Below, in pieces: positions 32,654-64,000 of a DNA stretch of 64,000 bases. Origin of the DNA: Acetomicrobium hydrogeniformans (GTDB lineage Bacteria; Synergistota; Synergistia; Synergistales; JAFGMB01); NCBI GenBank assembly GCA_016841745.1, contig JAENYO010000001.1, positions 56,799 to 120,798 of the forward strand, read 5' to 3'. The notes under the pieces are model-generated. The model made no database searches and had not been told where the DNA came from. It was given only the letters and a program-made list of their open reading frames with translations. Position 1 is the first letter of the stretch. Every line of letters begins with the position of its first letter. Made by a program: the position numbers and the translations under genes.

Positions 32654-32678
32654 TTCAGAACCCCAGGCCCAGCTAAAG

Positions 32679-32716
32679 ATAAGGGGGAGAAAGCTGAAAG
32701 CCTCTCCCCCCATCTA
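32679..32716 (-). terminator. Terminator of the kor operon
   Basis: AGATGGGGGAGA and TCTCCCCCTTATC pair around GGCTTTCAGCTT (minus strand), 20 bases after the korC stop, then TTATCTTTAG. Overlaps the ORF-track N-terminus of the methyltransferase gene. Confidence 0.65.
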
Positions 32717-32735
32717 TAATACCATCCCTGATGAT

Positions 32736-33296
32736 TTAAAGATGTTGACTGTTTTTAAACATTCCGTATCCTTCTTCGTAGGCTCGAATATTCAGATCTT
32801 CAGTACCTTTAGGGACCGCTTGAAGAAGAGCTTTTTTTATTGAGTCAGGATTAAGGACACCATCAAGTTCCAGAACTCGTGCAACACATCCAAGAGCAAC
32901 CATGTTTGTTACTATCTCTCTTCCGAGCTTTTCTCTGGCTGTTCTGACAATTGGTAAATAGTACAGATTGGCATCTACCCTTGGGAGGGTGTTAACATAA
33001 TAGTCATCGCAGATAACACGGCCGTCCATTATTGTATCGCCAAGATATTCACAGGCCTGCTGGGTAAGGATTATCTGAAGATTAGGTGATATAACCTCTG
33101 GATAGTCGATAGGTTCAGTTGATATAATCACCTGTGCCTGGGATTTTCCACCTCTCGCTTCAGCCCCATATGACTGGGTCTGGGCAACATAAAGATCCTT
33201 TTCAAACAAAGCAGCTGCCTTTGCAGTTATTACTGCTGCAAGTATATTGCCCTGACCACCCGAACCTGCAAATCGAATTTCATAACGTTTATTCAT
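32736..33296 (-). CDS. korC: 2-oxoacid:ferredoxin oxidoreductase, gamma subunit (KorC)
   Basis: 186 residues with the gamma-subunit signature RFAGSGGQGNILAAVITAKAA and QTQSYGAEARGGKSQAQVII. Part of a four-subunit complex that oxidatively decarboxylates a 2-oxoacid with CoA, reducing ferredoxin. Four-base overlap with korB. Confidence 0.92.
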   Translation of the reverse strand: MNKRYEIRFAGSGGQGNILAAVITAKAAALFEKDLYVAQTQSYGAEARGGKSQAQVIISTEPIDYPEVISPNLQIILTQQACEYLGDTIMDGRVICDDYYVNTLPRVDANLYYLPIVRTAREKLGREIVTNMVALGCVARVLELDGVLNPDSIKKALLQAVPKGTEDLNIRAYEEGYGMFKNSQHL

Positions 33297-34117
33297 CTGG
33301 ATCCCCCCTTCAACCTATCTACCAATCTTGAATACTGCTCAGTATATTCAGGGGACTGAATATTCACAAACTCACCTGTAACATATTTTCCTGCAAGTTC
33401 TTCCTTCGACATTCCCTGAGCTTTGGCAAAAGGAACGGAAGCATCCTTGATTCTGTTAAGGTTATCAATGGGGGTCCTGAACTTATTTCTTCTACCAAAC
33501 TGAGTGTGACAGCTGGATATTATTTCTATAACAGAAAAACCTTTATGCTTTATACCATCGACAATCAACTTTTCACACTGTTTAGGATTAGCTATGGTAC
33601 TCCTTGCGATAAAGGTTGCCCCAGCACCTTCAGCCAGTCTGCATAAATCAAAAGAGGAATCGATAACTCCATATGGTGCAGTTGTGGCTATTGCTCCATG
33701 GGGAGTAGTAGGCGACGCCTGTCCTCCAGTCATACCATAAATATTGTTATTCATTACAATAGCTGTAATGTCAATATTTCTTCGACATGCATGAATAAAA
33801 TGATTACCTCCAATAGCAGAACAGTCACCATCACCCATTACGTCTACAACAGTCAGTTCAGGTCTGGCCATCTTGATACCTGTAGCATATGCGAGGGAAC
33901 GTCCATGGGTGGAATGGACAGTACATGCATTTATATATCCTGGCATTCTGCTTGAACAGCCTATGCCAGAAGCAATGACAGTTTCCTCGGGTTTCATATC
34001 AAGGTCAACGAAAGCTCTGAGCATCGCATGAAGAATAACCCCATGACCACATCCCGGACACCACATATGTGGGAAAAACTGGGTTCTTAGCCATTTCAGT
34101 ACTTCGGGATTAGGCAT
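33293..34117 (-). CDS. korB: 2-oxoacid:ferredoxin oxidoreductase, beta subunit (KorB)
   Basis: 274 residues, TPP-binding subunit: WCPGCGHGVILHAM, GIGCSSRMPGY, HGRSLAYATGIKMARPELTVVDVMGDGDCSAIGGNHF and MNNNIYGMTGGQ. The length and the H(S)THGR segment fit the 2-oxoglutarate (Kor) group better than pyruvate Por. Three bases after korA. Confidence 0.92.
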   Translation of the reverse strand: MPNPEVLKWLRTQFFPHMWCPGCGHGVILHAMLRAFVDLDMKPEETVIASGIGCSSRMPGYINACTVHSTHGRSLAYATGIKMARPELTVVDVMGDGDCSAIGGNHFIHACRRNIDITAIVMNNNIYGMTGGQASPTTPHGAIATTAPYGVIDSSFDLCRLAEGAGATFIARSTIANPKQCEKLIVDGIKHKGFSVIEIISSCHTQFGRRNKFRTPIDNLNRIKDASVPFAKAQGMSKEELAGKYVTGEFVNIQSPEYTEQYSRLVDRLKGGSR

Positions 34118-34119
34118 TG

Positions 34120-35253
34120 TTAAGCCACCTCCTGAATAGATTTAAATATTTCATCTGGAGTAAAGAGCTCGCCATTAACGAGACTTTTTCCAATAACTTT
34201 TGTTTTTCCATGCACTGCCCTTTCAACTTCAAGAACCATTTGTCCACAGTTAAGTTCTGGAACAATTATAATCTTTGATTTCTTGGCTATCTGGTATATC
34301 TCTTTATCTGGGAAGGGCCAAAGGGTAACAGGCCTGAAATGACCCACTTTAATACCTCTTCTCCTTGCCTCATTAACTGCCCTGATACTTGACCGGGCGA
34401 CAGTACCAAAGGAAAGGACAACGATCTCCGCATCATCTATTGCTAATGTTTCATATTCGACTATATCATCACGGAAACGGTTTATCTTGCGAACAAGCCT
34501 TTTAATATTTTTTTCCACTTCATCCTCCTTTGCGGAGGGAAAACCGAAATCATTATGGGTCAGACCGGTGACATGCCATCTGTAACCGTCTCCGAAAGAA
34601 GCCATAGCAGGAATATCGTCTTCCGGATCAGCAAGGTATGGAATGAATTTAGCTTTGTCAGTACATGGTCTTTTTCTTTCAACTATCTCATATGAACCTG
34701 CAGGGGGTATGACTACTTTTTCTCTCATATGCCCAAGAACCTCATCACTGAGAATCAAGACAGGTTGACGGTAACGCTCTGCCGCGTTGAAAGCCTTAAT
34801 GGCTATATCAAAGCATTCCTGAACAGAAGAAGGGGAGTAGGCAATAGTTCCATGATCTCCATGAGTTCCCCACCTCGCCTGCATAACATCCATCTGGCTT
34901 ATTTTTGTGGGAACACCAGTAGATGGACCTCCTCTCATAACATTAACAAGCACAAGAGGGATCTCTGCCATATAGGCAAGTCCAAGATTTTCCTGTTTAA
35001 GAGATATACCTGGACCCGATGAGGCAGTCATCGATTTTCTGCCTGCAATTGATCCACCGATGGTCGCTGCCATACTGGCTATTTCATCTTCCATCTGGAT
35101 AAACTTACCACCACGAAGAGGAAGTTCCTTTGCCATTTCTTCCATAACATCTGTAGAGGGAGTTATGGGATATCCAGCAAAAAAACTGCATCCGGCAGCA
35201 AGGGCACCTTGAGCCAGAGCCTGGTTCCCTTGCCAGAAAGCAACATCAGTCAT
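34120..35253 (-). CDS. korA: 2-oxoacid:ferredoxin oxidoreductase, alpha subunit (KorA)
   Basis: 377 residues: AGYPITPSTDVMEEMAKELP, MEDEIASMAATIGGSIAGRKSMTASSGPGISL, MRGGPSTGVPTKISQMDVMQARWGTHGDH, and C-terminal GHFRPVTLWPFPDKEI. The family alignment favours 2-oxoglutarate as substrate, giving succinyl-CoA and reduced ferredoxin; branched 2-oxoacids cannot be excluded. Eight-base overlap with korD. Confidence 0.92.
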   Translation of the reverse strand: MTDVAFWQGNQALAQGALAAGCSFFAGYPITPSTDVMEEMAKELPLRGGKFIQMEDEIASMAATIGGSIAGRKSMTASSGPGISLKQENLGLAYMAEIPLVLVNVMRGGPSTGVPTKISQMDVMQARWGTHGDHGTIAYSPSSVQECFDIAIKAFNAAERYRQPVLILSDEVLGHMREKVVIPPAGSYEIVERKRPCTDKAKFIPYLADPEDDIPAMASFGDGYRWHVTGLTHNDFGFPSAKEDEVEKNIKRLVRKINRFRDDIVEYETLAIDDAEIVVLSFGTVARSSIRAVNEARRRGIKVGHFRPVTLWPFPDKEIYQIAKKSKIIIVPELNCGQMVLEVERAVHGKTKVIGKSLVNGELFTPDEIFKSIQEVA

Positions 35254-35455
35254 TATTTAGGTCCTCCTTCACAGTAATTGCCAGGTCCGGGCAAATATTT
35301 TCACACTGCCTGCAACCGATACAATCATCTTGACGAGCAGCATATGACGTGAGTCTATCGTTCAATTCAAGGACTTTTTTGGGACAGATCTGGACACATA
35401 GGTTACACCCCTTGCACCAGCTGCCATTTACTATTACTTGAAATTTTTTGGCCAA
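35246..35455 (-). CDS. korD: 2-oxoacid:ferredoxin oxidoreductase, delta subunit (4Fe-4S ferredoxin, KorD)
   Basis: About 69 residues with two [4Fe-4S] motifs, CKGCNLCVQICP and CIGCRQCENICP. Accepts electrons in the Kor complex. The track start (TTG at 35476) includes the GGGGGTGGAG ribosome-binding sequence, so a TTG at 35455 is more likely; both are non-ATG. First gene of korDABC. Confidence 0.9.
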   Translation of the reverse strand: MAKKFQVIVNGSWCKGCNLCVQICPKKVLELNDRLTSYAARQDDCIGCRQCENICPDLAITVKEDLNND

Positions 35456-35476
35456 AACTCCACCCCCTGATAGCAA

Positions 35477-35734
35477 AATTCATTTATCCATTCTGTTTTT
35501 CGGACAAACGATGGTATTTTAAAATTTCTTAATAAGGATAAACGTATAATGCTTTTCTTACAAGCGTTATTTCTTAGAATACGATAATCAGTTAGTTGCA
35601 TTTTTAGTTTATCTGCTTTATTCAACTTGTATACTCTATTATGAACTGACTGAACAATATTCAATACTATGAGAAAGGTTTTCGTACTGATATTGAATCA
35701 TTAGCGGAGAACATCTGTTTAGATTAACTTCAAA
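35477..35734. other. Intergenic region upstream of korDABC
   Basis: AT-rich, no convincing gene. The track ORF at 35434-35664 overlaps korD and has no ribosome-binding site. A weak minus-strand promoter candidate is TTGTTC-N18-TATACA at 35628-35657. I see no recognisable riboswitch. Confidence 0.4.
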
Positions 35735-35774
35735 AAGAGCAGGTATGCTGTATATATACAGCATACCTGCTCTT
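35735..35774 (-). terminator. Perfect 40-base palindromic terminator after tsaB
   Basis: AAGAGCAGGTATGCTGTATA and its exact complement meet with no spare loop bases; minus strand continues TTTTTGAAG. Lies 54 bases past tsaB and separates it from the kor promoter region. Confidence 0.8.
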
Positions 35775-35828
35775 AAAATATCTCATAAGAGTTAAAGAGG
35801 AATGGGCATGTTGAAAACAGAACAGTCT

Positions 35829-36509
35829 CTACAAAAGAGATGCTTTTGGTTTCCCTATGTCAGGTTCTCTGCAATATCGGGCCTTTATTTCAGTAGGTTC
35901 TACCGACAGGTTTATTTTCTGAAAAGCCATTGATGCTACAGAACCGCCTGAGATCGAACAATGTCGGACCGTAAAAGCTTTATTCTTAAAAAGCTCTCTG
36001 CATCTTTCACTGTCTGGACTGACAAGGATTGGTGTTTTTTTGAGGTCATTGAGGAACTCTTCCAATATCGGGACTGAATATGCGTCAACGGGCAGCAATG
36101 ACACCGTCCTGTCATTCTCTATAGTATAGGCACCTGCATAAATTGTTTTTCTGCTTCCCCATATCAGGGGAACATTTACCATGTGACTACCAAGGCAGGA
36201 TCCATAAACGACTGCCTCGAGGGAACATATGGGTATCACTGGTACTCCTAGACCTTCTCCAAGAGCAGTAGCATAGGAAATACCCACCCTGATCCCGGTA
36301 AAGTATCCAGGCCCGACAGTAACAGCTATGCGGTCTATCATATTCAGATTAATATCAAAGAAATTCAGCAATTGTTCTGTGACAAGGGGTAGAGATGCTG
36401 ACTGCCCTCTTCCAAGATCAAGATTTATCTCACCTATGGGTTTCCCTTCTATAGCAATTCCCACATTTGTTTTCCTGGTACTGCAATCTATTCCAAGTAT
36501 GTATTTCAC
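35829..36509 (-). CDS. tsaB: tRNA threonylcarbamoyladenosine biosynthesis protein TsaB
   Basis: 226 residues, ASKHA-fold partner of TsaD in t6A37 synthesis on ANN-decoding tRNAs. N-terminal YILGIDCSTRKTNVGIA, RIAVTVGPGYFTGIRVGISYATALGEGLGVPVIPICSLEA is the TsaB signature. Starts inside tsaE (four-base overlap). No tsaD in the window. Confidence 0.92.
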   Translation of the reverse strand: MKYILGIDCSTRKTNVGIAIEGKPIGEINLDLGRGQSASLPLVTEQLLNFFDINLNMIDRIAVTVGPGYFTGIRVGISYATALGEGLGVPVIPICSLEAVVYGSCLGSHMVNVPLIWGSRKTIYAGAYTIENDRTVSLLPVDAYSVPILEEFLNDLKKTPILVSPDSERCRELFKNKAFTVRHCSISGGSVASMAFQKINLSVEPTEIKARYCREPDIGKPKASLL

Positions 36510-37027
36510 AGAAAGCCGATCTCCTTTTTTAATGTATCTATATAATCACTAAGTATCTTCGCTGCTTTTTCTCCTATGGCAGAAAAAGAAAAATACCGTG
36601 TCTCTTCTGTTCTTCCTAATGGAACATGATCATTACTATTTTTACAGGAGATATTTATTATCCAGAGATCTCTAGACGGAGTTTCTTCTAGTTTTTCTGC
36701 CCATTCGATTATCAGAAGGAAACCATAATCCAGGTAGGAATCCAGATCCAGCCCATTTTCATCTCCTCTTTCAAGTCTGTAAAGATCCACATGGGCAATA
36801 GGAATCCTGCCCTGATATTCATTTACAAGGGTAAATGAAGGGCTTCGAACTCCTTTCACCCCCATAACATTAGAAAGTCCACGAACAAAAACTGTTTTTC
36901 CAGCCCCAAGGTCTCCAGAGAGATGTATTGTAAGACCAGGATAAACAAACTCTGCAATCTTGCCAGCAAGGTCTATTGTTTCTTCTTCAGAAAAAGTAAT
37001 CAGAGAGTTATGAGAAGCAAAGATCAA
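36506..37027 (-). CDS. tsaE: tRNA threonylcarbamoyladenosine biosynthesis ATPase TsaE
   Basis: 173 residues with Walker A LSGDLGAGKTVFVRGL, SPSFTLVNEY and IAHVDLYRLE followed by the Walker-B-like IIEWAEKLE. ATPase that resets the TsaBD complex. Six bases after the nnr gene; the acpS-nnr-tsaE-tsaB order is common in bacteria. Confidence 0.94.
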   Translation of the reverse strand: MIFASHNSLITFSEEETIDLAGKIAEFVYPGLTIHLSGDLGAGKTVFVRGLSNVMGVKGVRSPSFTLVNEYQGRIPIAHVDLYRLERGDENGLDLDSYLDYGFLLIIEWAEKLEETPSRDLWIINISCKNSNDHVPLGRTEETRYFSFSAIGEKAAKILSDYIDTLKKEIGFL

Positions 37028-37033
37028 TAATTA

Positions 37034-38596
37034 TCAACCTTTCAGGGTACTCATAATGTCATTTGCTGAAAGTAATCTTAATCGATTCACTATTGCAGGA
37101 ATCCTGTCGGCCAGTTCTCTGGAAATTATTCCGTCCAGTCCTACAATCCCGGCAAGTTCGTCTCCTGCCCTGGCATGTAGCCACGCACCTGTGTATGCTG
37201 CCTCAAAGGGTTCAACACCTCCGGCCAGAAGGGATGAAATAATCCCGGATAACACATCTCCGGACCCAGGTATGGCTAGAGACTGATTGCCTCCCAATAT
37301 AACTGCAGTTCTAATCCCATCGTCAATAAGGGTATGGTAACCTTTGAGTAAAACCACACCCCATCTGGTTGCTAATTCTCTTACACATCCAAGTCTGTCT
37401 TTTGTTACAGTCCCTATATCAGTTCCAAGTAATCTGGACGCTTCGCCTTCGTGGGGAGTTAAAACCACATTTTCCCTCCGGAGCATTTCTCCCTCTATTT
37501 CAGACAGCGAGAATAAAGCATCCGCATCGAGAACTATCGGAGTGTTAACCTCATTCCATAACCTGGTTACAAGCCTCGTTGTTGACGGGTTTCGTCCAAG
37601 TCCAGGTCCTATCACCATTGAGTCAGACCTCTCTTCCAGAAGTTTTATACGGGGAAAAAGGGATTCCGTCAATATATCTGCTTCGTCAAATGAGAAACCC
37701 CACGTTATAACTTCTGGCAGAAAAGAAGATATAGTATTCTGCGCATCTATGGAAGAAAGTGTAAAAACCAGGCCAGCTCCGGTTCTGAGACAACCAAGAG
37801 CAGTCAGTGCAAGAGAACCCCTGTATTCAGGAGCACCACCAATAGCGGTAACATTTCCTCTCTGCCCTTTATGCATGTCCAGTGGCCTCTCCGGAAGATT
37901 TCTTCTTACATCACTTTCTGTAACACCTATTATCCTTGGCGGAACAACAAGGACTGTATCCTTAGGAACTCCTATATCTGCAACTTTAAGATTGCCTGAA
38001 TACCGTGCTGCTGGCATAAGCCCCAATCCTGTTTTAGGCGCAAGCATTGTAATGGTAAGTACCGATTTGATACAGGGAGAGTAGACTTGTCCGTTCAGTG
38101 GATCAATGCCACTTGGAATATCGACTGATACGACAGGCGTTTTAGGAGGAATCAGGGATATTATTCGGGCACATTCTCCACGGGGACAACCCTTGCTTCC
38201 AGTACCAAGCAATGCATCCACACATATATCACTTGAACATATCATTCCATGAATATCCTCATCCAGGATCTCAGAAGATGAATATATTTGAATACCCAGC
38301 GATTTCGCAACCTTGAAATTAATAGCAGAATCACCACTGAAAGAGGTCGTTGTTATAGCTGAAATTACTACAACATCTACCTTATTCCGCATAAGGTGTC
38401 TTGCCATAACAAGACCATCTCCCCCATTGTTGCCGGGGCCTACAAATATGCAGACAGATGATAAGTTGTATTCTTCCATCAATATATCTACAGCATTACG
38501 CCCTGCGTTCTCCATAAGAACCATACCTGGAATTCCAATGTCATCCATTGCTCTCCTATCAGCTTTTTTGATTGTTTGAGGATCGTAAAAATCCAT
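37034..38596 (-). CDS. nnr: Bifunctional NAD(P)H-hydrate epimerase / ADP-dependent dehydratase
   Basis: 520 residues from the ATG at 38596 (GGAGGTGTTCCAGA in front); the 37 extra residues of the track ORF are read from inside acpS. Residues about 1-215 are the YjeF-N/NnrE epimerase (GMVLMENAGRNAVDIL, VGPGNNGGDGLVMARHL); about 225-515 the NnrD dehydratase (HKGQRGNVTAIGG, MVIGPGLGRNPST, LTPHEGEASRLLG, LAIPGSGDVLSGIISSLLAGG). Repairs hydrated NAD(P)H. Overlaps acpS by 38 bases. Confidence 0.94.
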   Translation of the reverse strand: MDFYDPQTIKKADRRAMDDIGIPGMVLMENAGRNAVDILMEEYNLSSVCIFVGPGNNGGDGLVMARHLMRNKVDVVVISAITTTSFSGDSAINFKVAKSLGIQIYSSSEILDEDIHGMICSSDICVDALLGTGSKGCPRGECARIISLIPPKTPVVSVDIPSGIDPLNGQVYSPCIKSVLTITMLAPKTGLGLMPAARYSGNLKVADIGVPKDTVLVVPPRIIGVTESDVRRNLPERPLDMHKGQRGNVTAIGGAPEYRGSLALTALGCLRTGAGLVFTLSSIDAQNTISSFLPEVITWGFSFDEADILTESLFPRIKLLEERSDSMVIGPGLGRNPSTTRLVTRLWNEVNTPIVLDADALFSLSEIEGEMLRRENVVLTPHEGEASRLLGTDIGTVTKDRLGCVRELATRWGVVLLKGYHTLIDDGIRTAVILGGNQSLAIPGSGDVLSGIISSLLAGGVEPFEAAYTGAWLHARAGDELAGIVGLDGIISRELADRIPAIVNRLRLLSANDIMSTLKG

Positions 38597-38966
38597 TCTG
38601 GAACACCTCCAATACGACAAAAGCAGCTGAAAGACCACCCTCATGGCTGATACTGACATGTACTCTAAGTGGATCATTGGCTGATAGTAGGTCCTTAACC
38701 TTATCACTCAATTGCATTAAAGGACCTTGAGGCGTCCTTTCGACCCACACTCCTTGAAAGATTATTCTTGAGAGTCCTAATCCACTTGCTTTAGCAAATG
38801 CTTCCCTGGCCGCAAAGGAAGCAGCGTAATGCTGCGCCGGAAATAGCTTGGAGGATGCATAATCAATCTCTACGGGGTGAAAAACCCTTTGCACAAAATG
38901 AGAATTTTGTATAACCTTCTCCATTCTGGATATTTTACAAAGATCTATCCCGATGCCCATCAACAT
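38559..38966 (-). CDS. acpS: Holo-[acyl-carrier-protein] synthase AcpS
   Basis: 135 residues. Transfers phosphopantetheine from CoA to acyl carrier protein. Motifs MGIGIDLCKISRMEKV and FAAREAFAKASGLGL hold the Mg-binding Asp and Glu; VHVSISHEGGLSAAFVVLE follows. The track ORF begins 100 codons earlier, inside tRNA-Val; the real start is the ATG at 38966, eight bases after GAAGG. Confidence 0.93.
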   Translation of the reverse strand: MLMGIGIDLCKISRMEKVIQNSHFVQRVFHPVEIDYASSKLFPAQHYAASFAAREAFAKASGLGLSRIIFQGVWVERTPQGPLMQLSDKVKDLLSANDPLRVHVSISHEGGLSAAFVVLEVFQNGFLRSSNNQKS

Positions 38967-53426: not shown

Positions 53427-53819
53427 TTGAAGTGGCTGAAGACATATCCGGAGAGATGTATTGGTTGTGAACAATGTATGGAAACATGCTCAGAGTTATG
53501 GTTTAGAGAAAAATCAAAACTTCTGTCAAGAATCAGAATATCAGCGAACGAAGTAGGTTTTTCACTTAATGCGTGCAACCAATGTGGCAAGTGCATCGAA
53601 ATATGTCCCGTAGGGGCCTTGGCAAGAGATGCAAATGGCATAGTTCAGCTTGATAAAGACAAATGTGTAGGCTGTATGATGTGTGTCGCTTTTTGCCCGA
53701 CATCAAGCATTTTCTTTAGCTCCACAAAGGGCGTTGAACCTTTCAAATGCATTGCCTGTGGAGCCTGCACAAAAGGATGTCCTACGGAAGCATTGGAGAT
53801 AGTGGAAGAATACAATTGA
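53427..53819 (+). CDS. Polyferredoxin, four [4Fe-4S] clusters, partner of the aldehyde oxidoreductase
   Basis: 130 residues with four full cysteine sets: CIGCEQCMETC, CNQCGKCIEICP, CVGCMMCVAFCP and CIACGACTKGCP, 16 cysteines in all. Electron-transfer subunit. TTG start preceded by GGGGGG. The AOR gene follows 24 bases later. A separate small FeS subunit with several clusters is known for WOR5-type tungsten oxidoreductases of Pyrococcus, which is the closest architectural match. Confidence 0.9.
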   Translation: MKWLKTYPERCIGCEQCMETCSELWFREKSKLLSRIRISANEVGFSLNACNQCGKCIEICPVGALARDANGIVQLDKDKCVGCMMCVAFCPTSSIFFSSTKGVEPFKCIACGACTKGCPTEALEIVEEYN

Positions 53820-53843
53820 CTTTTATTTATGGGGGGTATTTAA

Positions 53844-56018
53844 ATGGCAGGCATTGAAATGAAAGTTCTTGCAGAATGGAAATATGAGAAATCCATACCG
53901 TTCAGAGGATATACCGGTAAAACTCTTTATGTAAACGTAGAAAACCAGGAATGCATTGAAAAAGAAGTAACTGAAGAGATGAAGGAAAGATTTACGGGGG
54001 GAAGAGGTTTTGGACTAAAACTTCTATGGGATGCTGTAAAAGACAATACAAAGTGGGATGATCCAGAGAATGAGATCATCATTTCAGGAGGCCCCTTATG
54101 TGGGGTAACGCAATATCCGGGATTGGGTAAGTTCTATGCCGTTTTTATTTCGCCTCTTTCCGGCCAGACCTATGACAGTAACGCAGGAGGGCATTTCGGT
54201 CCTCTGCTAAAATTTGCAGGGTGGGATGCTCTGGAAATACAGGGAAAATCAAGTAGTGATGTTGTTATATTCATCGATGGTGATAACGGCAAAGTTCAGT
54301 TCTTAGAGTCAGACCTCAAAGATTTAAATAGCTACACAATAACAGAATCCCTTCATGACTATTTTTCAGAAACCGAAGACGATAAACGTTCAGTTTCAGT
54401 TGTTTCTACAGGACAGGCTGCTGAACATACTTACTGGGGTTGTCTTAACTCCAGTTTTTATGATCTAAAAAGAAAGACACCCCGCTTGAAACAGGCAGGA
54501 AGGGGTGGCGGTGGAACTATCCTCCGGAATAAAAAGATCGTTGCACTGGTAGTTAGAAATCGAGATTGGTCCAACATCAAACAAGGAATCAAAGATTTTG
54601 GCATATTGCAGGAAGTTGGACTAAAACTACATAAGGAGATTCATGATCTCGATGCCAAACAGGCGAGAATGCGTACTGTTGGAACAGCTCATCTTAATGA
54701 GATCATGAACGATTATCACCTTCTTCCTACCCATAATTTTAAATTCGGTCAACATAAAGACATTGCGAATATTCATTCGAATGTTTATGAGGGCCTGTTC
54801 ACCCAAGGAGTACCAGATGGATGCTGGTATGGGTGTTCAATGGCATGTAGCAAGGGAGTAGACAATTTCGAAATTAAGACTGGCCCCTGCAAAGGACAAA
54901 TTGTAACAGTGGATGGACCGGAGTATGAAACAAGCTCTAGCTTGGGACCAAATATCGGAATAATGAACCCTGCATGGACCATTGAAGCTAATTTTTATGC
55001 TGACCATTATGGTTTTGATACTATTGGTCTCGGTACAGGATTAGCTTTCGTCTGTGAATGCTTTGAAAAAGGTTTCATCAACCAGGAGATCACCAATGGA
55101 CTTGATCTCAACTTCGGAAATATGGATAACATAATGAAACTTATCCATCGAATGGCCGAGGGAAAAGACACTTTTGCGAATGAAGTCAGTAAAGGTATCA
55201 GGCAGATGAAAAAGGTTTTTGAAGAAAAATATGGTGCTCCTGCCGAAAACCTGCGTGATATAGGAATGGAAGGTCAGGGAATTGAAGTTTCCGAGTATGT
55301 CTGCAAAGAATCTATCGCACAGTGGGGCGGTTTCTTCCTGACCCTCAAGGGCCCACAACACGATGAAGCCTGGCTTATTTTTATGGACAGAGTGAACAAG
55401 CAATTACCAACCTTCGAAGATAAGGCTGAAGCTCTCCATTATTTCCCTCTTTTCAGAACCTGGTTCTCCCTGATTGGAGGCTGCAAGCTTCCGTGGAATG
55501 ACGTCGAACCTGCAGATAATATGACCAAGTACCCACCTCAGGAAGCTGCAAAGGTTCCTGAACATGTTCAGAATTACGTCGATATCTTCAATGCCGTTAC
55601 CGGGAGAAGTATAACTAAGGAAGATCTTCTACTCATGTCTGAAAAGGTATATAACTTCCAGCATCTTTTCCAGATCAGACTTGGAAAGGGCACAAGAGAT
55701 TTCCACAACATACCTTATAGAGCAATGGGCCCCGTATATGCAGATGAATGGGAAGCCCGATCCGAATATTACGATAACGAACTTCGAGAGGCTGGGATTG
55801 AACCAGAAAGACTTCCTGTTGAAGAGAAGATAAGTAAATTGAGGGTTATCAGGGAACAACAGTGGATAACACTTGTTGATGCAGTATATAACAAAAGAGG
55901 ATGGGATAGAAACGGTATACCGACTCTTGAAAAACTAAGAGAAATCGACATGGAACTGCCTGAACTGGTAAAGATCGTCAAAGAAAAAGCAAAGCCTGAA
56001 GACAGTTTCACTAATTAG
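53844..56018 (+). CDS. Aldehyde ferredoxin oxidoreductase family (tungsto/molybdo-pterin)
   Basis: 724 residues, longer than classical AOR (about 605). N-terminal AOR_N domain with GYTGKTLYVNVE, TGGRGFGLKLLWD, SGGPLCGVTQYPGLGKF and DSNAGGHFGPLLKFAGWDAL; RGGGGTILRNKKIVAL; cluster cysteines C327, C331 and C335 in GCWYGCSMACSKG and C547 in GGCKLPWND. Oxidises an aldehyde to an acid and reduces ferredoxin, using a bis-pterin W or Mo cofactor. ATG with GGGGGG upstream. Divergent from the IclR-cit operon. Substrate unknown; aldehydes from amino-acid degradation are the usual case. Confidence 0.94.
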   Translation: MAGIEMKVLAEWKYEKSIPFRGYTGKTLYVNVENQECIEKEVTEEMKERFTGGRGFGLKLLWDAVKDNTKWDDPENEIIISGGPLCGVTQYPGLGKFYAVFISPLSGQTYDSNAGGHFGPLLKFAGWDALEIQGKSSSDVVIFIDGDNGKVQFLESDLKDLNSYTITESLHDYFSETEDDKRSVSVVSTGQAAEHTYWGCLNSSFYDLKRKTPRLKQAGRGGGGTILRNKKIVALVVRNRDWSNIKQGIKDFGILQEVGLKLHKEIHDLDAKQARMRTVGTAHLNEIMNDYHLLPTHNFKFGQHKDIANIHSNVYEGLFTQGVPDGCWYGCSMACSKGVDNFEIKTGPCKGQIVTVDGPEYETSSSLGPNIGIMNPAWTIEANFYADHYGFDTIGLGTGLAFVCECFEKGFINQEITNGLDLNFGNMDNIMKLIHRMAEGKDTFANEVSKGIRQMKKVFEEKYGAPAENLRDIGMEGQGIEVSEYVCKESIAQWGGFFLTLKGPQHDEAWLIFMDRVNKQLPTFEDKAEALHYFPLFRTWFSLIGGCKLPWNDVEPADNMTKYPPQEAAKVPEHVQNYVDIFNAVTGRSITKEDLLLMSEKVYNFQHLFQIRLGKGTRDFHNIPYRAMGPVYADEWEARSEYYDNELREAGIEPERLPVEEKISKLRVIREQQWITLVDAVYNKRGWDRNGIPTLEKLREIDMELPELVKIVKEKAKPEDSFTN

Positions 56019-56247: not shown

Positions 56248-57405
56248 TCAGGGTGTATATACATCGAAACCTCCCTGGTCATTTACTACATACATAAGAT
56301 ATGGTACTCCTTCTCTATCGCCATTCTCAGTAAAACCTATGGAACCGGTAACACCGGGAACACCATTGACTTCATTTCGAAGATACTCTGCTATTGCTGC
56401 AGAATCGTTAGTTCCAACCTTATCCACAGCATAAGCGATCATATTCAATGCGTCGGCAGCATAAACAGGCCAGGGACTTGATGGAACTTCTCCATATTTT
56501 GCTTTGTAAGCATCAAGGAACTGTCTGGATTTATCATAGGGAAGCTCCGCAGGCATCGGCTCCTGGGTCATAAAACACCCTTTTGCAATGTCCAGACCTG
56601 CAATTCTTACAAATTCATCATTAATTGCAGCATTTCCTCCCACAAAGGGACAGTCAATACCTAAGTCTCGTGCCTGTGCTGCAATAATGGCCGCTTCCGC
56701 ATAGTATCCAGTAAAATAAAGAACATCAGGTTCAGTTTCTTTAACTTTGGTTAAAGGCACCATAAAGTCTTCGTCGCCAGGAGTTATGGCATCATAGTAG
56801 ACTATTTCCACTTTCCCCGTATTGATCAAAGTCTGGAGTGCCTTTTTGGTCTCCTCTGCAACACCAAGTGCAAATACAGTATTGTCATGAATTATTGCAA
56901 TTCTTTTAGATCCAAAGACTCTTGGAACATATTGTGCGAAGAATATGCCCTGGGCACTATCGACTCCACATATTCTGAAAAAATAATTAAAACCTCTCTG
57001 TGTGAGACCAAGTGCCGTTACGCCATAACCAATGTTTACAATTCTTCTTTTTTCATAAATTTCAGAAGCAGACTCACACACAGAGGAACCATAAGTAGAG
57101 ACAACACCCACAATATTCTTGAGTGAGACAAGCCTGGTTGCGGCAAAAGATCCTTCCTCCGGCTGACCCATATCATCCGCAACATGGACCTCTATTACCC
57201 GCCCACCAAGGATACCGCCATTTTCGTTAATCAGTTGAGCAGCAATTTCGCAGGTTTTTTGGGCCGTTTGACCTTCATATTTCCAAGGGCCGGTAAGAGG
57301 CCCTTGAAGTCCTATTATCACAGGCATATCCACTGCAAAAATGCAACTTGACGCGAACAGCACGAAAATGAAAGAGACAAAGAAATTCCTGACAATATTT
57401 TGCAT
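56248..57405 (-). CDS. ABC transporter substrate-binding protein, branched-chain amino acid (LivJ) type
   Basis: 385 residues. Signal peptide MQNIVRNFFVSFIFVLFASSCIFA; cleavage could be after FA or, less likely, at the Cys as a lipoprotein (ASSC is a weak lipobox). Mature part is a type-1 periplasmic binding protein: VIIGLQGPLTGPWKYEGQTAQKTCEIAAQLINENGGILGGRVIEVHVADDMGQPEEGSFAATRLV, IAIIHDNTVFALGVAEETKKAL. Binds an amino acid or related compound in the periplasm. No permease or ATPase genes are near, so it is an orphan in this window and probably works with a transporter encoded elsewhere. Confidence 0.9.
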   Translation of the reverse strand: MQNIVRNFFVSFIFVLFASSCIFAVDMPVIIGLQGPLTGPWKYEGQTAQKTCEIAAQLINENGGILGGRVIEVHVADDMGQPEEGSFAATRLVSLKNIVGVVSTYGSSVCESASEIYEKRRIVNIGYGVTALGLTQRGFNYFFRICGVDSAQGIFFAQYVPRVFGSKRIAIIHDNTVFALGVAEETKKALQTLINTGKVEIVYYDAITPGDEDFMVPLTKVKETEPDVLYFTGYYAEAAIIAAQARDLGIDCPFVGGNAAINDEFVRIAGLDIAKGCFMTQEPMPAELPYDKSRQFLDAYKAKYGEVPSSPWPVYAADALNMIAYAVDKVGTNDSAAIAEYLRNEVNGVPGVTGSIGFTENGDREGVPYLMYVVNDQGGFDVYTP

Positions 57406-57715: not shown

Positions 57716-57997
57716 TTATTCTACCTCTTCAGACTTAATTAATCCAAGCTTCACCGGCTTGGTTGGCGGTCGGAAGGTACCGGGAGCAACTTCTTCGTAA
57801 GATTTACCCGTCATTTTGCAAATTTCCCGAATGACTATATCGCGGCAGCCTCGGCCCTGGCATGGGCCCATTCCCACGCGTATAACGCGCTTTAATTCTT
57901 CCAGGCTATCATATCCACGCGCAATCCATTCCCTGATTTCGCCCAGGGTTATCTCCTCGCACCGGCAAACAACGATGTCATTATCTTTATCGGGCAT
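57716..57997 (-). CDS. BFD-like [2Fe-2S] protein (split C-terminal domain of HcnB/SoxA-type subunit), copy 1
   Basis: 93 residues. CRCEEITLGEIREWI...VGMGPCQGRGCRDIV is the Fer2_BFD signature with four cysteines (CxC and CX4C). In HcnB, OoxA and similar proteins this domain is the C-terminus of the NAD(P)/FAD subunit; here it is a separate gene. Overlaps the ferredoxin gene upstream by 11 bases. About two thirds identical by eye to the copy at 63143-63478. Confidence 0.88.
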   Translation of the reverse strand: MPDKDNDIVVCRCEEITLGEIREWIARGYDSLEELKRVIRVGMGPCQGRGCRDIVIREICKMTGKSYEEVAPGTFRPPTKPVKLGLIKSEEVE

Positions 57998-58508
57998 TAT
58001 TTTTCACCACCTTTATATTCCGAATATCCATGACTCTATCCTTCGGAACAACAACATGAACAACCATGGTGCTGTCTTCCCATGGTTCGGTGATATTAAT
58101 GACCTTGCCCTGAGAAACCTCACTACCAATCCGGTCAAGGCAGACCACTTCATCACCAGGCTCAGGTTTAGGCAGCATCTCGTAGGGGAGCTTCATCAGA
58201 GCTTCATTCTCGGCACCCCAAGTCAGGTCTGCTACAAAACATGCAAGGCCAGGACACTTCGCTACACATCGGCCACAGCCAATGCATTTTGTGTAATCAA
58301 CAACAGGAGTATCATTGATATCTTCAAAAGGAAGTATCGCTCCGGTGGGACAGCTCTCATAGCATGGATTGCACGGGATACGCTGGGGACACTCTATTAT
58401 TACAAGACCGTTTTTCTTTGTCTTCCAAAGATCTCTAGGCGGTATTACTGTCTCTATACGTTCCGCTGTGAGCACGCCGCTGTTAAAGAGTTTATCCATA
58501 TCCGTCAT
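57987..58508 (-). CDS. Ferredoxin-like subunit with two [4Fe-4S] motifs, copy 1
   Basis: 173 residues. CPQRIPCNPCYESCPTGAI and CIGCGRCVAKCPG give two clusters; the C-terminal half (LPYEMLPKPEPGDEVVCLDRIGSEVSQGKVI) is outside the ferredoxin fold and is also kept in the second copy. Likely electron-transfer subunit of the DAO-type dehydrogenase complex. Lies six bases after the flavoprotein gene. Confidence 0.88.
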   Translation of the reverse strand: MTDMDKLFNSGVLTAERIETVIPPRDLWKTKKNGLVIIECPQRIPCNPCYESCPTGAILPFEDINDTPVVDYTKCIGCGRCVAKCPGLACFVADLTWGAENEALMKLPYEMLPKPEPGDEVVCLDRIGSEVSQGKVINITEPWEDSTMVVHVVVPKDRVMDIRNIKVVKNNAR

Positions 58509-58514
58509 TTTCTC

Positions 58515-59618
58515 CTACCCCCACTGTTTGCAGCAGACACAACTAAGCCCGCTCCTGATCTTTTCGCCTACTTCTCCTGCCCTGAGATTCTCTAGGCGCT
58601 GGTGATACTCCGCAGATCGATCATAGAAGGTTTCCTGAGATACATGATTCAGCGAAGCTACTGCACTCAGACCTGCTATGCGACCCTCGACCATGGCAGC
58701 AGAGGCTTCTTCAATCCCGGCTGCGTCTCCAGCTACCCAGATGTCTGGATGGGAAGTACGCATCATGGGATCCCTTCGTGCAACGTATCCACAAAGTTGA
58801 GGTACAAACTTCATTTCACATCCTGCCGACCAGAGCAGTTCACATGTGGGGGTAAGTCCCACGGCAAGACAGATGGTGTCACATTCGACTTCCATGGGAT
58901 CACCCACAGGCTGGAAACAGTTATTAACCTCCTGTATTACAGCCCCCTCAACAACATTATTTCCAAGGGCCTCCTTGATTGTGTGCTGCAGATAGATGGG
59001 TACCCCCAGACGGCGGATCTTGGCTGCATGAACCCAGTAACCTCCTATTTTGGGCATAGCTTCAACAATCCCGGCGATCTTGATACCGGCCTGCATAAGT
59101 TGATAGCTCACTATAAGACCGATATTTCCTGCTCCGATCATGAGCACTTTCTCTCCTGGGACTATGCCGTAAACGTTCATAAGTGTCTGAATCGCTCCTG
59201 CTCCATATACACCTGGCATATCATTATTCACAAAAGGGATAAGGCGTTCCTGGGCTCCAGTAGCGAAAACAAGTTTCTGAGGCTTAATCCGGCCGTACTT
59301 CTCCTCACCCACCATGTAGCTAACGACGCCGTCCTCTTTGTAATACCCCGTAGCTGTAGTATTAGTGAAGACCTTCAGTTTACCCAGGGTCTTATACTTT
59401 TCAATTTCATCAAACAGGAAATTAGCGATCTCAAATCCGCGAGTACCAGCATATTCTGCTTTGGAACCGAAGAACTTATGGGTCTGCTTTATAAGTTGGC
59501 CGCCAAGCTTCAGGTCGCTGTCCAGAACGGTAACATCTGCACCAAGCGAAGCTGCTTCAAGAGCCGCAGAAAGTCCAGCAGGTCCACCTCCGATAACAAG
59601 TATCTCTGTAGTCTGCAT
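58515..59618 (-). CDS. NAD(P)/FAD-dependent oxidoreductase (HcnB / proline dehydrogenase alpha-type), lacking the BFD domain
   Basis: 367 residues. FAD-binding GGGPAGLSAALEAASLGADVTVLDSD at the N-terminus, ATGAQERLIPF, second dinucleotide fold VLMIGAGNIGLIVSYQLMQAGIKIAGIVEA and the AGDAAGIEEASAAMVEGRIAGLSAV end. Homologues of 450-500 residues carry a C-terminal BFD domain; this one stops at CVCCKQWG and the domain is supplied by the separate gene at 57716. Probably passes electrons from the DAO subunit to NAD(P) or ferredoxin. GGAGAGGAGCG upstream. Confidence 0.88.
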   Translation of the reverse strand: MQTTEILVIGGGPAGLSAALEAASLGADVTVLDSDLKLGGQLIKQTHKFFGSKAEYAGTRGFEIANFLFDEIEKYKTLGKLKVFTNTTATGYYKEDGVVSYMVGEEKYGRIKPQKLVFATGAQERLIPFVNNDMPGVYGAGAIQTLMNVYGIVPGEKVLMIGAGNIGLIVSYQLMQAGIKIAGIVEAMPKIGGYWVHAAKIRRLGVPIYLQHTIKEALGNNVVEGAVIQEVNNCFQPVGDPMEVECDTICLAVGLTPTCELLWSAGCEMKFVPQLCGYVARRDPMMRTSHPDIWVAGDAAGIEEASAAMVEGRIAGLSAVASLNHVSQETFYDRSAEYHQRLENLRAGEVGEKIRSGLSCVCCKQWG

Positions 59619-59620
59619 GG

Positions 59621-59962
59621 TTAACGCTCCTCTCCTTCCTCTGACTTCAGGACTCCTCTGCCCTTCTGGGTTTCAACCTTCATTCCGGCCTTGAGGGGCG
59701 TTACACATGTACGCACGTTAGGAACGCCATCAACGATCATGAAACAGGATGAACACTTCCCTATGGCGCAGAAGAAGCCCCGAGGACGTTCTGTTTTAGG
59801 TGTGATTCGATAGACCTGGATGCCATTAGCGTGAAGGGCTGCAGCGATAGGATCGTCTTCAAATCCTTTCATCTCCTTGTTATCAAAGGTGAAAGTTACC
59901 ATTTTTTTCTCTTCATGACCAAAATCCAGGATAGGATGATCTTTGATGAGTTTAATAGACAT
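59621..59962 (-). CDS. [2Fe-2S] ferredoxin subunit (HcnA / sarcosine oxidase alpha N-terminal type)
   Basis: 113 residues of the Fer2_4 type: FTFDNKEMKGFEDDPIAAALHANGIQVYR, then CAIGKCSSCFMIVDGVPNVRTC with the four cluster cysteines. In HcnABC and D-hydroxyproline dehydrogenases this is the small subunit bridging the two flavoproteins. GGAGGCGTACATA before the ATG. No counterpart of this gene is visible in the second copy inside the window. Confidence 0.88.
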   Translation of the reverse strand: MSIKLIKDHPILDFGHEEKKMVTFTFDNKEMKGFEDDPIAAALHANGIQVYRITPKTERPRGFFCAIGKCSSCFMIVDGVPNVRTCVTPLKAGMKVETQKGRGVLKSEEGEER

Positions 59963-59974
59963 TATGTACGCCTC

Positions 59975-61120
59975 CTATATGCAAGCGGGTTCGAAGAAAA
60001 GGTCCCCTTCTTCGAAGCGACTGTACCTGAACATGGAAACGTCGATAAAAGGTTTTTCACCATTCACGATCTCTGCCATGATCCGTCCGACCGAGGGAGC
60101 AAACTGAAGGCCATGACCGCTCCACCCACAATCAATATAGAAACCTTCTACAGGAGTTGCTCCGACAATAGCCTGGAAATCTGGTGTATTTCCATAAGGA
60201 CCTGTCCACTGCCGGACAACCCGGATGTGTTCCAATATAGGCATCTTCGGAAGGATACGTTCTGTAGCAGCTTCCAGATAATCCCAGCTTGCATAGAAAG
60301 AGGTATCTTTTACCTCTTCTTTACCCACACCGAGCATGAAAGTTCCGTTAGGGCACTGCTTCCAGTAACTACCATCATCCAGACAGAGCGTCATGGGGTG
60401 TTTCATCCGTTCCACCGGTTCGGTAATAAGGATCTGATGCCGTTCAGGAATGACCGGAATATCCAGGTCAACCCACCTTCCGATATTCTGAGTCCAGGCT
60501 CCAGCGCAGCATACAACAGCATCCGCCTCCCAGTCGCCCTTGTTCGTATGAATTCCAGCTACTTGGCCACCCTTGCTAATAAGTCCCGTGACCGTAATCT
60601 TTTTGTTAATCTCAACCCCAAGGGCTTTTGCAGCATCAGCATATGCAAAACAGAGGGTATGGGGGTTAATATGCCCATCCTCCTGGTTAAAACTTGCGCC
60701 AAGCATCCCTTCTGTATTTAGAAAGGGAGCGACCTCTTGAATTCCTTTTACAGTAAGAACCTTTGAACCAGTTGTGCCAAGTTCATTCTGTAACTTCACG
60801 TTTTTCTCAAGTTGAGCTAGCTGAGATTCAGAATAGGCAATCCAGAGATATCCAGCTGGGTCATATTCCAGGTCTCCAGGATAATGGAGATCCTCTCCCA
60901 ACGATTTAAGGCATTTCATATTGTACTGAGCAAGTCGAATATTCACCTCAGTACCGAACTGATATCTTAAACCGGCTGCGCTTCTACCGCTTGATCCAGA
61001 AGAAATATAATCTCGCTCGAACAAAGCCGTCTTGAACCCTTTTTTCGCCAGATGATAGGCAGTAGAACATCCATGGACGCCACCACCTATGACAGCTACG
61101 TCCACACGTTTGCTCACCAT
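59975..61120 (-). CDS. FAD-dependent amino-acid dehydrogenase, DAO family (HcnC / sarcosine-proline dehydrogenase beta type), copy 1
   Basis: 381 residues. VDVAVIGGGVHGCSTAYHLAKKGFKTALFERD FAD motif, SGSSGRSAAGLRYQ, and C-terminal VVRQWTGPYGNTPDFQAIVGATPVEGFYIDCGWSGHGLQFAPSVGRIMAEIV. Oxidises a secondary or D-amino acid (proline, sarcosine, glycine, hydroxyproline are all known in the family); substrate not assignable. AAAGGAGGCGTATGC before the ATG. First gene of the five-gene operon. Confidence 0.9.
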   Translation of the reverse strand: MVSKRVDVAVIGGGVHGCSTAYHLAKKGFKTALFERDYISSGSSGRSAAGLRYQFGTEVNIRLAQYNMKCLKSLGEDLHYPGDLEYDPAGYLWIAYSESQLAQLEKNVKLQNELGTTGSKVLTVKGIQEVAPFLNTEGMLGASFNQEDGHINPHTLCFAYADAAKALGVEINKKITVTGLISKGGQVAGIHTNKGDWEADAVVCCAGAWTQNIGRWVDLDIPVIPERHQILITEPVERMKHPMTLCLDDGSYWKQCPNGTFMLGVGKEEVKDTSFYASWDYLEAATERILPKMPILEHIRVVRQWTGPYGNTPDFQAIVGATPVEGFYIDCGWSGHGLQFAPSVGRIMAEIVNGEKPFIDVSMFRYSRFEEGDLFFEPACI

Positions 61121-61994: not shown

Positions 61995-63143
61995 TTATAC
62001 CACCGCAGGTTCTATAATGAGTTTTCCCTCGGCAAAACGACGGTAATGAAGCATATCTATTGGCATGTCGGTGTTGCCTCTCACTATGAGTTGAGCTATC
62101 AGTTCGCCCGTAACAGGAGCAAACATGAAACCATGGCCAGAGAAAGCTCCGGTCATGTAGAAGCCCTTAACATGCTCAGCTTCACCCATTATTGGCTGGC
62201 AGTCAAGACTCATGTTATACAGGCCGGCCCATTGCCTTACCACTCTGATGTCCCTGGTTCTTGGAAGAAGCTTGGTAAACACACTGGCCATATGTTCAAG
62301 GAAAGAAAAATTGCTCCTCAGATCATATTCGATAGGATGTCCTACTGGACTGCAACCCCCGACAATGGTTCCATCGGGTCTCTGCTGCAAGTAATAGTTA
62401 CCACTGAAGCTCATCAGCATTGGAGGACAAACACCAAGTTCTACTGGTTCGGTTACAAGAATATCGTGGTTCTCGGAATGGACAGGTAATTCAAGGTCTA
62501 TCATTTCAGCTATGTCATGAAAAAAACCGCCTGCAGCATTAAGCACCACTGGTGTGTCTATTTCTCCTTTGTCTGTCACTACAGTTTTAACCGCACCATT
62601 TTCGACCTTGATATCTATAACTTCTGTAAATTTGAGAAACTCGACTCCGAGCCTTTTAGCACTTTCCATAAAGGCAAAAGTTGTGAAAAAAGGATCAGCA
62701 TGACCATCTCTTTGGTAGAATGTAAAACCCAAAGCATCATCGGCGGATAGGCCCGGACATATCTCGTAGGCTTCATCCTTCGAAACAACGCGAGAATCAA
62801 TGCCAAGGCTGTTCTGAAGCTTGATGTTTTCCTTGAGTTGGTCAAATTCGCTATCCTTGTATGCCACCATTAGATATCCACTCTGATCGAGACCTACGTT
62901 CATTTCCAATTCTTCTTCAAGGTTTTCGAAGCGTTCAAGACAGGCTTTTCCAAAACGGCAGTTCATCTCGGTGCCCCACTGGGCCCTTATCCCTGCTCCA
63001 CACCTTCCGCTGGAACCTGAACATATGGTACCCTTTTCTACCACTATTATGTTTTTTACACCCATTTTGGCAAGATGGTACGCCGAAGAACAGCCCTGTA
63101 CTCCTCCACCAATTACAACAATATCTGCAGTTTTCCAGGCCAT
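61995..63143 (-). CDS. FAD-dependent amino-acid dehydrogenase, DAO family, copy 2
   Basis: 382 residues. ADIVVIGGGVQGCSSAYHLAKMGVKNIIVVEKG, SGSSGRCGAGIRAQWGTEMN, VVRQWAGLYNMSLDCQPIMGEAEHVKGFYMTGAFSGHGFMFAPVTGELIAQLI. Same architecture as copy 1 but clearly diverged (for example AGIRAQWGTEMN against AGLRYQFGTEVN), so a different amino-acid substrate is likely. Begins at TAATG, overlapping the BFD stop by one base. Last gene of its operon, whereas the copy 1 DAO gene is first. Confidence 0.9.
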   Translation of the reverse strand: MAWKTADIVVIGGGVQGCSSAYHLAKMGVKNIIVVEKGTICSGSSGRCGAGIRAQWGTEMNCRFGKACLERFENLEEELEMNVGLDQSGYLMVAYKDSEFDQLKENIKLQNSLGIDSRVVSKDEAYEICPGLSADDALGFTFYQRDGHADPFFTTFAFMESAKRLGVEFLKFTEVIDIKVENGAVKTVVTDKGEIDTPVVLNAAGGFFHDIAEMIDLELPVHSENHDILVTEPVELGVCPPMLMSFSGNYYLQQRPDGTIVGGCSPVGHPIEYDLRSNFSFLEHMASVFTKLLPRTRDIRVVRQWAGLYNMSLDCQPIMGEAEHVKGFYMTGAFSGHGFMFAPVTGELIAQLIVRGNTDMPIDMLHYRRFAEGKLIIEPAVV

Positions 63144-63478
63144 TAGTGACTCACCACCTTTCCTTTCCAGGGATCTTCTTTATTCGCTTCCGTAAGCATC
63201 CCAAGTTTAACTGGTTTCACAGGTGGTCTGTAAGTACCAGTTCCGATCTCTTCCAGGGTCTTACCAGTCATCCTGGCAATCTCTTTCATAACGATATCTC
63301 TGCAACCTCTACCCTGGCAAGGGCCCATGCCTACTCCGGTAAGCCGTTTTAACTCATCAAAAGTATCATATCCTCGTGAAATCCATTTCCTGATCTCCTT
63401 CAGGGTAACTTCTTTACAGCGGCAGACAACGATGTCTCCTTCTTCATATTGTCTCTTCTCCGAGCATATTCCAGCCAT
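63143..63478 (-). CDS. BFD-like [2Fe-2S] protein, copy 2
   Basis: 111 residues; CRCKEVTLKEIRKWI...VGMGPCQGRGCRDIV. Longer at both ends than copy 1, otherwise very similar, including the shared RPPVKPVKLG tail. Separate gene, as in copy 1. Two bases after the ferredoxin gene. Confidence 0.88.
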   Translation of the reverse strand: MAGICSEKRQYEEGDIVVCRCKEVTLKEIRKWISRGYDTFDELKRLTGVGMGPCQGRGCRDIVMKEIARMTGKTLEEIGTGTYRPPVKPVKLGMLTEANKEDPWKGKVVSH

Positions 63479-63480
63479 AA

Positions 63481-63990
63481 TTATTTCACCACCCTGACAG
63501 CTCTGATTTCATTAACCAGATCATTAGGCACTACTACGTGAACAACCAGGGTACAATCCTTTCTTGGTTCATTGATGTCTACTACTTTCCCTTGTGCCAC
63601 GACCTCTCCGATCCGGTTCAAGCAATTAACCTGTTCCCCTATTTCCGGTCTTGGCAGCATCTCGTAGGGCAACTTCATCAACGCTTCTTCTTCAGAACCG
63701 TAGGTAAGATCCACAACGAAACATGCAAGCCCGGGGCAAGTCGCAACACACAGCGAACAGCCTATACATTTTGTGTAGTCGATACGTGGAACATCAATGA
63801 TCTTATTGAAGGGAAGAACTGCTCCTGTAGGACAACTTGAGTAACAGGGATTGCACGGTATTTGCTGGGGACACTCTATAATAACCAGTCCATTTTTCTT
63901 CTTGTTCCAGAGTTCTGTGGGAGGTAACTCTGCTCCTGGCCGACTTTGGGTCAGAACTCCACTGTTGAATAGTTTTTCATCTTTAGTCAT
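63481..63990 (-). CDS. Ferredoxin-like subunit with two [4Fe-4S] motifs, copy 2
   Basis: 169 residues, complete; the ATG at 63990 is ten bases from the window edge. CPQQIPCNPCYSSCPTGAV and CIGCSLCVATCPG clusters. Closely similar along its whole length to the copy at 57987-58508. The NAD(P)/FAD flavoprotein and [2Fe-2S] subunit of this module, if present, lie beyond 64000. Confidence 0.88.
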   Translation of the reverse strand: MTKDEKLFNSGVLTQSRPGAELPPTELWNKKKNGLVIIECPQQIPCNPCYSSCPTGAVLPFNKIIDVPRIDYTKCIGCSLCVATCPGLACFVVDLTYGSEEEALMKLPYEMLPRPEIGEQVNCLNRIGEVVAQGKVVDINEPRKDCTLVVHVVVPNDLVNEIRAVRVVK

Positions 63991-64000
63991 GTTAATCCAC

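Follow-up and report, generated by a model that had tools for sequence, protein, structure and literature searches.

Two five-gene modules lie side by side on the minus strand toward the end of the window, by which we mean the whole stretch of 64,000 nucleotides that was analyzed (C7:56799-120798 of genome G000, the Synergistota genome Acetomicrobium hydrogeniformans GCA_016841745.1). Each module consists of a DAO-family substrate subunit and four electron-transfer genes, here called the cassette, namely, a [2Fe-2S] protein, a flavoprotein, a 2x[4Fe-4S] ferredoxin subunit (Fd), and a BFD subunit. For the features beyond the window end in Table 1, the window coordinate is the L001 coordinate + 55201.

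Table 1. Features of the two modules and their surroundings, in window coordinates
Feature	Position	Strand	Remarks
YjeF-TsaE-TsaB-KorD-KorA-KorB-KorC-RumA cluster	31226-38707	-	Names TsaE and KorD assigned by position and sequence
Periplasmic amino-acid-binding protein	56248..57405	-	After module 1
BFD 1	57716..57997	-	[2Fe-2S] subunit
Fd 1	57987..58508	-	2x[4Fe-4S] subunit
Flavoprotein 1	58515..59618	-	Pyr_redox_2
[2Fe-2S] protein 1	59621..59962	-	Fer2_4; C-X4-C-X2-C-X12-C
DAO 1	59975..61120	-	Type-1 substrate subunit, 381 aa; Pfam DAO
Stem-loop	61774..61818	-	3' of DAO 2; 15-bp perfect arms; -28.3 kcal/mol, z -5.0
DAO 2	61995..63143	-	Type-2 substrate subunit, 382 aa; Pfam DAO; FAD motif GGGVQG at 12; Arg-X-Trp at 303
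BFD 2	63143..63478	-	[2Fe-2S] subunit, C-X-C-X32-C-X4-C; Pfam SO_alpha_A3/Fer2_BFD
Fd 2	63481..63990	-	2x[4Fe-4S] subunit, 169 aa, C-terminal beta-rich domain; Pfam Fer4
Flavoprotein 2	65104-63992	-	Last 9 bases in window (63992..64000)
[2Fe-2S] protein 2	65451-65101	-	Outside window
Proline-racemase family gene	66602-65592	-	Outside window, upstream of module 2
Sodium symporter	68708-67233	-	Outside window

In the direction of transcription, module 1 reads DAO-[2Fe-2S]-flavoprotein-Fd-BFD and module 2 reads [2Fe-2S]-flavoprotein-Fd-BFD-DAO, with a one-base overlap between the BFD 2 and DAO 2 genes. The first-pass annotation described 61995-63990 as a second, rearranged module beside the first. 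It was right about the Fd-BFD-DAO order (the minus-strand genes are present and their Pfam domains match), about the DAO that leads in copy 1, and about the second module itself, but the rearranged copy is module 1, as the order of module 2 is the common one among relatives. A leading DAO characterizes the type-1 modules of the window's family and of G017, G021, G022, and G123, and in the remaining type-1 modules the DAO comes last; one divergent DAO (G166:C53) also stands first. The sequence past 64000, proposed earlier as a check, contains a second flavoprotein gene and a second [2Fe-2S] gene, and every gene is intact, which rules out a decayed or incomplete module 2. Since a strong stem-loop, a probable terminator, stands between them, the two modules are probably transcribed separately. 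Matches resembling sigma-70 promoters were no more frequent in the module region than expected by chance, and searches for riboswitches and other Rfam RNAs found none. A transposase-like gene, broken into two open frames (L001:14573-15390), lies beyond the window on the upstream side of the symporter and module 2 and might have a bearing on the arrival of module 2. The AlphaFold model of Fd 2 has a pLDDT of 87, and despite this good model, the fold of the Fd subunit gave no significant match in the PDB.

Global alignments between the modules agree with the earlier observation that the small subunits are more alike than the DAOs (62-69% versus 40%): DAO 1 and DAO 2 are 40.4% identical, and the other pairs are 63.1% ([2Fe-2S] protein), 65.2% (flavoprotein), 68.6% (Fd), and 62.4% (BFD) identical. 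Third codon positions are 29-41% identical, indicating that all five subunit pairs are old. Between G000 and G122, a member of the same family, orthologous modules have DAOs 83% and 89% identical and cassettes 83% and 76% identical; the DAO thus evolves no faster than the cassette, and the gap of 40% versus 65% is not a rate effect. The cassettes of modules 1 and 2 share a younger ancestor than the DAOs, whose split is the older. The suggestion of shared electron-transfer parts with diversified substrate subunits captured the contrast between conserved and diversified parts, but each module owns a complete set, and a sister relationship between the two cassettes is rejected (AU test, p = 3e-18): each groups with its counterpart in G122.

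The Fd subunit is present in 85 of the 188 Synergistota genomes surveyed, with at least two copies in 29 of the 85 and a maximum of five; plasmid sequences searched for it gave no close match. The DAO tree has a single switch of type label, against 10 on the tree of concatenated cassettes, and a type-1 cassette clade is rejected by the AU test (p = 7e-5). Cassettes within one genome are 97-99% identical in protein in seven genomes (G017, G021, G022, G123, G137, G166, and G170), where the DAOs beside them are only 37-40.5% alike. Within-genome cassette identity is 87-93% in G136, G169, and G130 and 65-68% in G000, G122, G155, and G157, and across all genomes compared, the DAOs within a genome are 35-40.5% identical. 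These DAO comparisons use protein identities, the corresponding DNA values being an alignment artifact of free end gaps.

At the DNA level, the two cassettes of a genome are 99.6% identical in G021 and in G123, 99.2% in G022 (the sister species of G021), and 97.0% in G017, and the homology forms a single stretch of ∼2.2 kb that starts at the [2Fe-2S] gene, finishes where BFD does, and thus has its edges at the cassette. In G137, both DAOs follow the cassette and the homologous block extends about 200 bases into the DAO. For the cassette alone, identities within a genome are 97.2% (G137), 97.7% (G166), 97.8% (G170), and 85.2% (G136), and those between genera are 81-89%. Five of the genomes (G021, G022, G123, G136, and G137) are single-contig assemblies, so the near-identical cassettes are not an assembly artifact. 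Within-genome pairs are supported on the tree for G017, G123, G166, and G170, and for G021 and G022 as four copies together. G136 is a weak case, its type-1 cassette being nearer to that of G137 (88.6%) than to its own type-2 cassette. The neighboring genes at both loci are the same between genera in G136, G137, and G166, as are those at the type-1 locus only in G170; synteny of the type-2 locus was also seen for other genomes. Because both loci are older than the genera and the cassettes nevertheless pair by genome, conversion rather than recent module duplication is indicated. Judged from sequence comparison, and with synteny of the two loci wherever it was tested, the pattern is one of recurrent concerted evolution that leaves the substrate subunit untouched, presumably through gene conversion.

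Two accounts by duplication have to be weighed against conversion between old loci. Near-identical copies could also arise if the cassette had recently and independently been duplicated to new sites, and G009 and G006 do have a cassette without a recognized DAO adjoining. We consider this improbable, given the neighbors shared between genera at both loci of G136, G137, and G166 (and at the type-1 locus of G170) and the retention of YjeF-TsaB-module-Kor at type-2 loci across families. Still less credible is a plain tandem duplication followed by faster DAO divergence, which would require no exchange or conversion for the window. The two modules are indeed adjacent and on the same strand, and substrate subunits often diverge faster, but the orthologues show a DAO no faster than the cassette, and the split between type-1 and type-2 DAOs predates the families while the cassettes do not follow it. 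Nor are the modules generally neighbors: in L-13, a long distance separates the type-1 from the type-2 modules, and module 1 of G122 is not adjacent to its module 2 on a 13-kb contig.

Judged by trees, synteny, and DNA identity, the four electron-transfer genes behave as a single exchangeable unit. Most relatives that have both types appear to have homogenized this cassette repeatedly between the type-1 and type-2 loci by conversion, with the DAO genes kept apart; in the window's family, homogenization appears to have ceased long ago, so that each module owns a diverged cassette. A tentative explanation, to which we give somewhat less than even odds, is that the core is an interchangeable chassis whose products must fit several substrate subunits in one cell, that selection for cross-assembly has kept the copies identical via conversion throughout the radiation of a phylum, and that lineages like that of the window evolved two dedicated cores.

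The repertoire of modules extends beyond the two types. G166 has five modules (L100-L104), each with a different DAO, two of which are very divergent. In G170, a cassette (C36b; L108:1-12601) is followed by a 445-aa DAO-like protein that is 25% identical to either DAO and appears to be a further type of substrate subunit. Cassettes without a recognizable adjacent DAO occur in G009 (C6), G006, and G176 (L063, L081, and L091); their partner may be provided in trans.

Module 2 of the window lies away from the site that type-2 modules occupy in relatives of five families, between TsaB and KorD. In the window's genome, the TsaB-KorD gap (35477..35828, minus strand) contains neither a module nor a remnant. 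The neighbor genes of the Kor cluster fall among families whose site carries the module (support, 87/88), and the absence of the module here is therefore probably a loss. The position of DAO 2, moderately supported (88/79), is outside the Kor-linked clade, but its vertical descent with family f4 is not rejected (AU p = 0.105). Module 2 would have either moved about 26 kb or been replaced by another copy (loss and regain).

The closest solved relative of both DAOs is 1y56_B (PH1364), the FAD subunit of an L-proline dehydrogenase from Pyrococcus (E values of 3e-59 for DAO 1 and 5.6e-81 for DAO 2), and the flavoprotein and the [2Fe-2S] protein, encoded by separate genes, both match its partner chain, 1y56_A (PH1363). 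Both DAOs have the FAD motif (GGGVHG/GGGVQG) at 12 and RQW at 303, and the Arg-X-Trp motif is described as an FMN site (PMC4575208). In the family-model search, no model names either DAO above its cut-off; further matches of the DAO profiles are to sarcosine oxidase beta and to glycine oxidase. Heterotetrameric sarcosine oxidase is not supported, as the scores are far below the curated cut-offs of soxB (TIGR01373; 174 and 189 of 529 bits) and soxA (TIGR01372; 177 of 1164). The three-subunit alpha-beta-gamma D-hydroxyproline/opine dehydrogenase does not fit either, since there are five genes here, including the 2x[4Fe-4S] subunit, and they are conserved across the phylum. The DAO search also suggested a third module at C14:375306-376894, which was discarded because it has no Fd subunit of the module kind; its layout, a DAO with a fused BFD and then a second flavoprotein, is GlpA/GlpB-like and resembles that of glycerol-3-phosphate dehydrogenase.

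The best reading is that the modules encode two dye-linked proline-type dehydrogenases, with a gene order closest to the archaeal pdhA-F-X-B and with alpha split in two. Each would form a dye-linked dehydrogenase of five subunits that acts on a cyclic imino acid, with the DAO oxidizing the substrate on FAD. The subunit families suggest that electrons would then pass via FMN at the DAO/flavoprotein interface to the [2Fe-2S] protein, BFD, and Fd, with a low-potential carrier as the final acceptor.

Drawing only on neighboring genes, we consider it most likely that type 2 (DAO 2) acts on L-proline and type 1 (DAO 1) on D-proline. Proline racemases have two catalytic cysteines plus Phe (PMC4364671), and this signature, Cys-Cys (MCGHG and DRSPCGTG) with Phe at site 5, is present in 7/7 linked racemase genes. 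The NCBIfam proline racemase model is the best one for the linked racemase, yet the score is below the cut-off (379 of 556 bits). Proline-type racemases are linked to the type-1 modules of G021, G022, G149, G154, and G155, and Asp/Glu-racemase-like genes stand beside type-1 modules in several other genomes. Racemase genes are also found by type-2 modules, in G011 and in the window itself, and because the window's racemase is upstream of module 2, the assignment of L- and D-proline is not certain. The type-2 neighborhood in its fullest form is YjeF-TsaB-module-KorABC; KorABC, a 2-oxoacid:ferredoxin oxidoreductase, is present at 18 loci (families f2, f4, f5, f8, and f10). These neighbors suggest that the racemase may link the L- and D-proline pools and that the type-2 route could lead from proline through glutamate and 2-oxoglutarate to KorABC.

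Near module 1 are a small ferredoxin gene and an aldehyde:ferredoxin-oxidoreductase-like gene (window 53427-56018, plus strand), and the same pair, 58-62% identical, adjoins type-2 modules in G104 and G029 (L095 and L097). No dedicated dehydrogenase for P5C was found above the cut-off, and for this reason we speculate that the aldehyde:ferredoxin-oxidoreductase-like gene encodes a partner enzyme, perhaps oxidizing glutamate semialdehyde. D-Proline reductase was rejected as the fate of D-proline, as no PrdB was found above the cut-off, just GrdB relatives. These three genes of the G000 genome (C7:363790-364827, C3:124593-125630, and C8:443615-444652; glycine/sarcosine/betaine reductase family) each have an in-frame TGA, probably encoding selenocysteine, inside the PrdB-model match.

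Sarcosine, other N-methyl amino acids, or hydroxyproline could be the substrates instead of proline, and the matches of the DAO profiles to sarcosine oxidase beta and glycine oxidase, together with the three GrdB-type genes, are consistent with this. We regard it as rather unlikely, since the soxB and soxA scores are so low, the neighboring racemases have the proline-racemase signature, and the best solved match is an L-proline dehydrogenase. For the account as a whole, i.e., cyclic-imino-acid dehydrogenases divided by proline enantiomer, a cassette homogenized between loci, and a module 2 off its usual site, we estimate a probability of about 0.7.

These modules offer a series of natural experiments on how multisubunit redox enzymes gain substrates, a single kind of core being paired with as many as five DAOs in one genome (G166). 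Because some genomes have identical cores and others diverged ones, whether the electron-transfer core must be shared can be tested directly by coexpression. Recurrent bacterial concerted evolution would be extended to part of an operon, and likely functions are provided for genes widespread in the Synergistota, whose only other matches are to generic flavoprotein and ferredoxin families. The enzyme class is already known. The open-access literature searched contained no report of conversion confined to the electron-transfer genes of an operon of this kind, and against that literature the five-gene form and the evolutionary pattern appear new.

Several known systems share aspects of this arrangement. 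In Thermococcales, the genes of the alpha-beta-gamma-delta dye-linked L-proline dehydrogenase (pdhA-pdhF-pdhX-pdhB) are ordered alpha-gamma-delta-beta, and in Thermococcus litoralis they adjoin a ProR-like gene (PMC4364671). Matched by position, this is the order of module 2 ([2Fe-2S] protein plus flavoprotein, Fd, BFD, and DAO), which likewise has a proline-racemase-like gene close by; in contrast, alpha is here two genes, there are two modules with different DAOs, and the host is a member of the Synergistota. PH1363/PH1364 (alpha4-beta4; 1y56) is alike in that the DAOs match PH1364 and the flavoprotein and [2Fe-2S] protein match PH1363, but that enzyme has just two subunits and lacks a ferredoxin and a BFD as separate ones. 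In the flavin-containing opine dehydrogenase OdhABC, the unrelated catalytic subunits OdhB1 and OdhB2 are combined with common electron-transfer subunits, a case of "subunit exchange" (Watanabe 2015, PMC4575208). Variation of catalytic subunits over an electron-transfer core and the Arg-X-Trp FMN motif are common to both systems; OdhABC, however, is one operon with one set, whereas here there is a four-gene cassette per DAO, homogenized between loci in relatives. For prokaryotes, concerted evolution that is recurrent and long-lasting has been described in 26 genes, including tuf, amoCAB, and electron transfer flavoprotein, on the basis of monophyly of a genome's paralogues, synteny of both loci across species, and occurrence in at least five species (Wang & Chen 2018, PMC6053082). 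Such monophyly is not seen for the cassettes of the window's own genome. In several relatives, as in those cases, the paralogues of a genome cluster together though both loci, where tested, are syntenic across species, but the module genes are not among the 26, and here only part of an operon is homogenized and the substrate subunit is spared.
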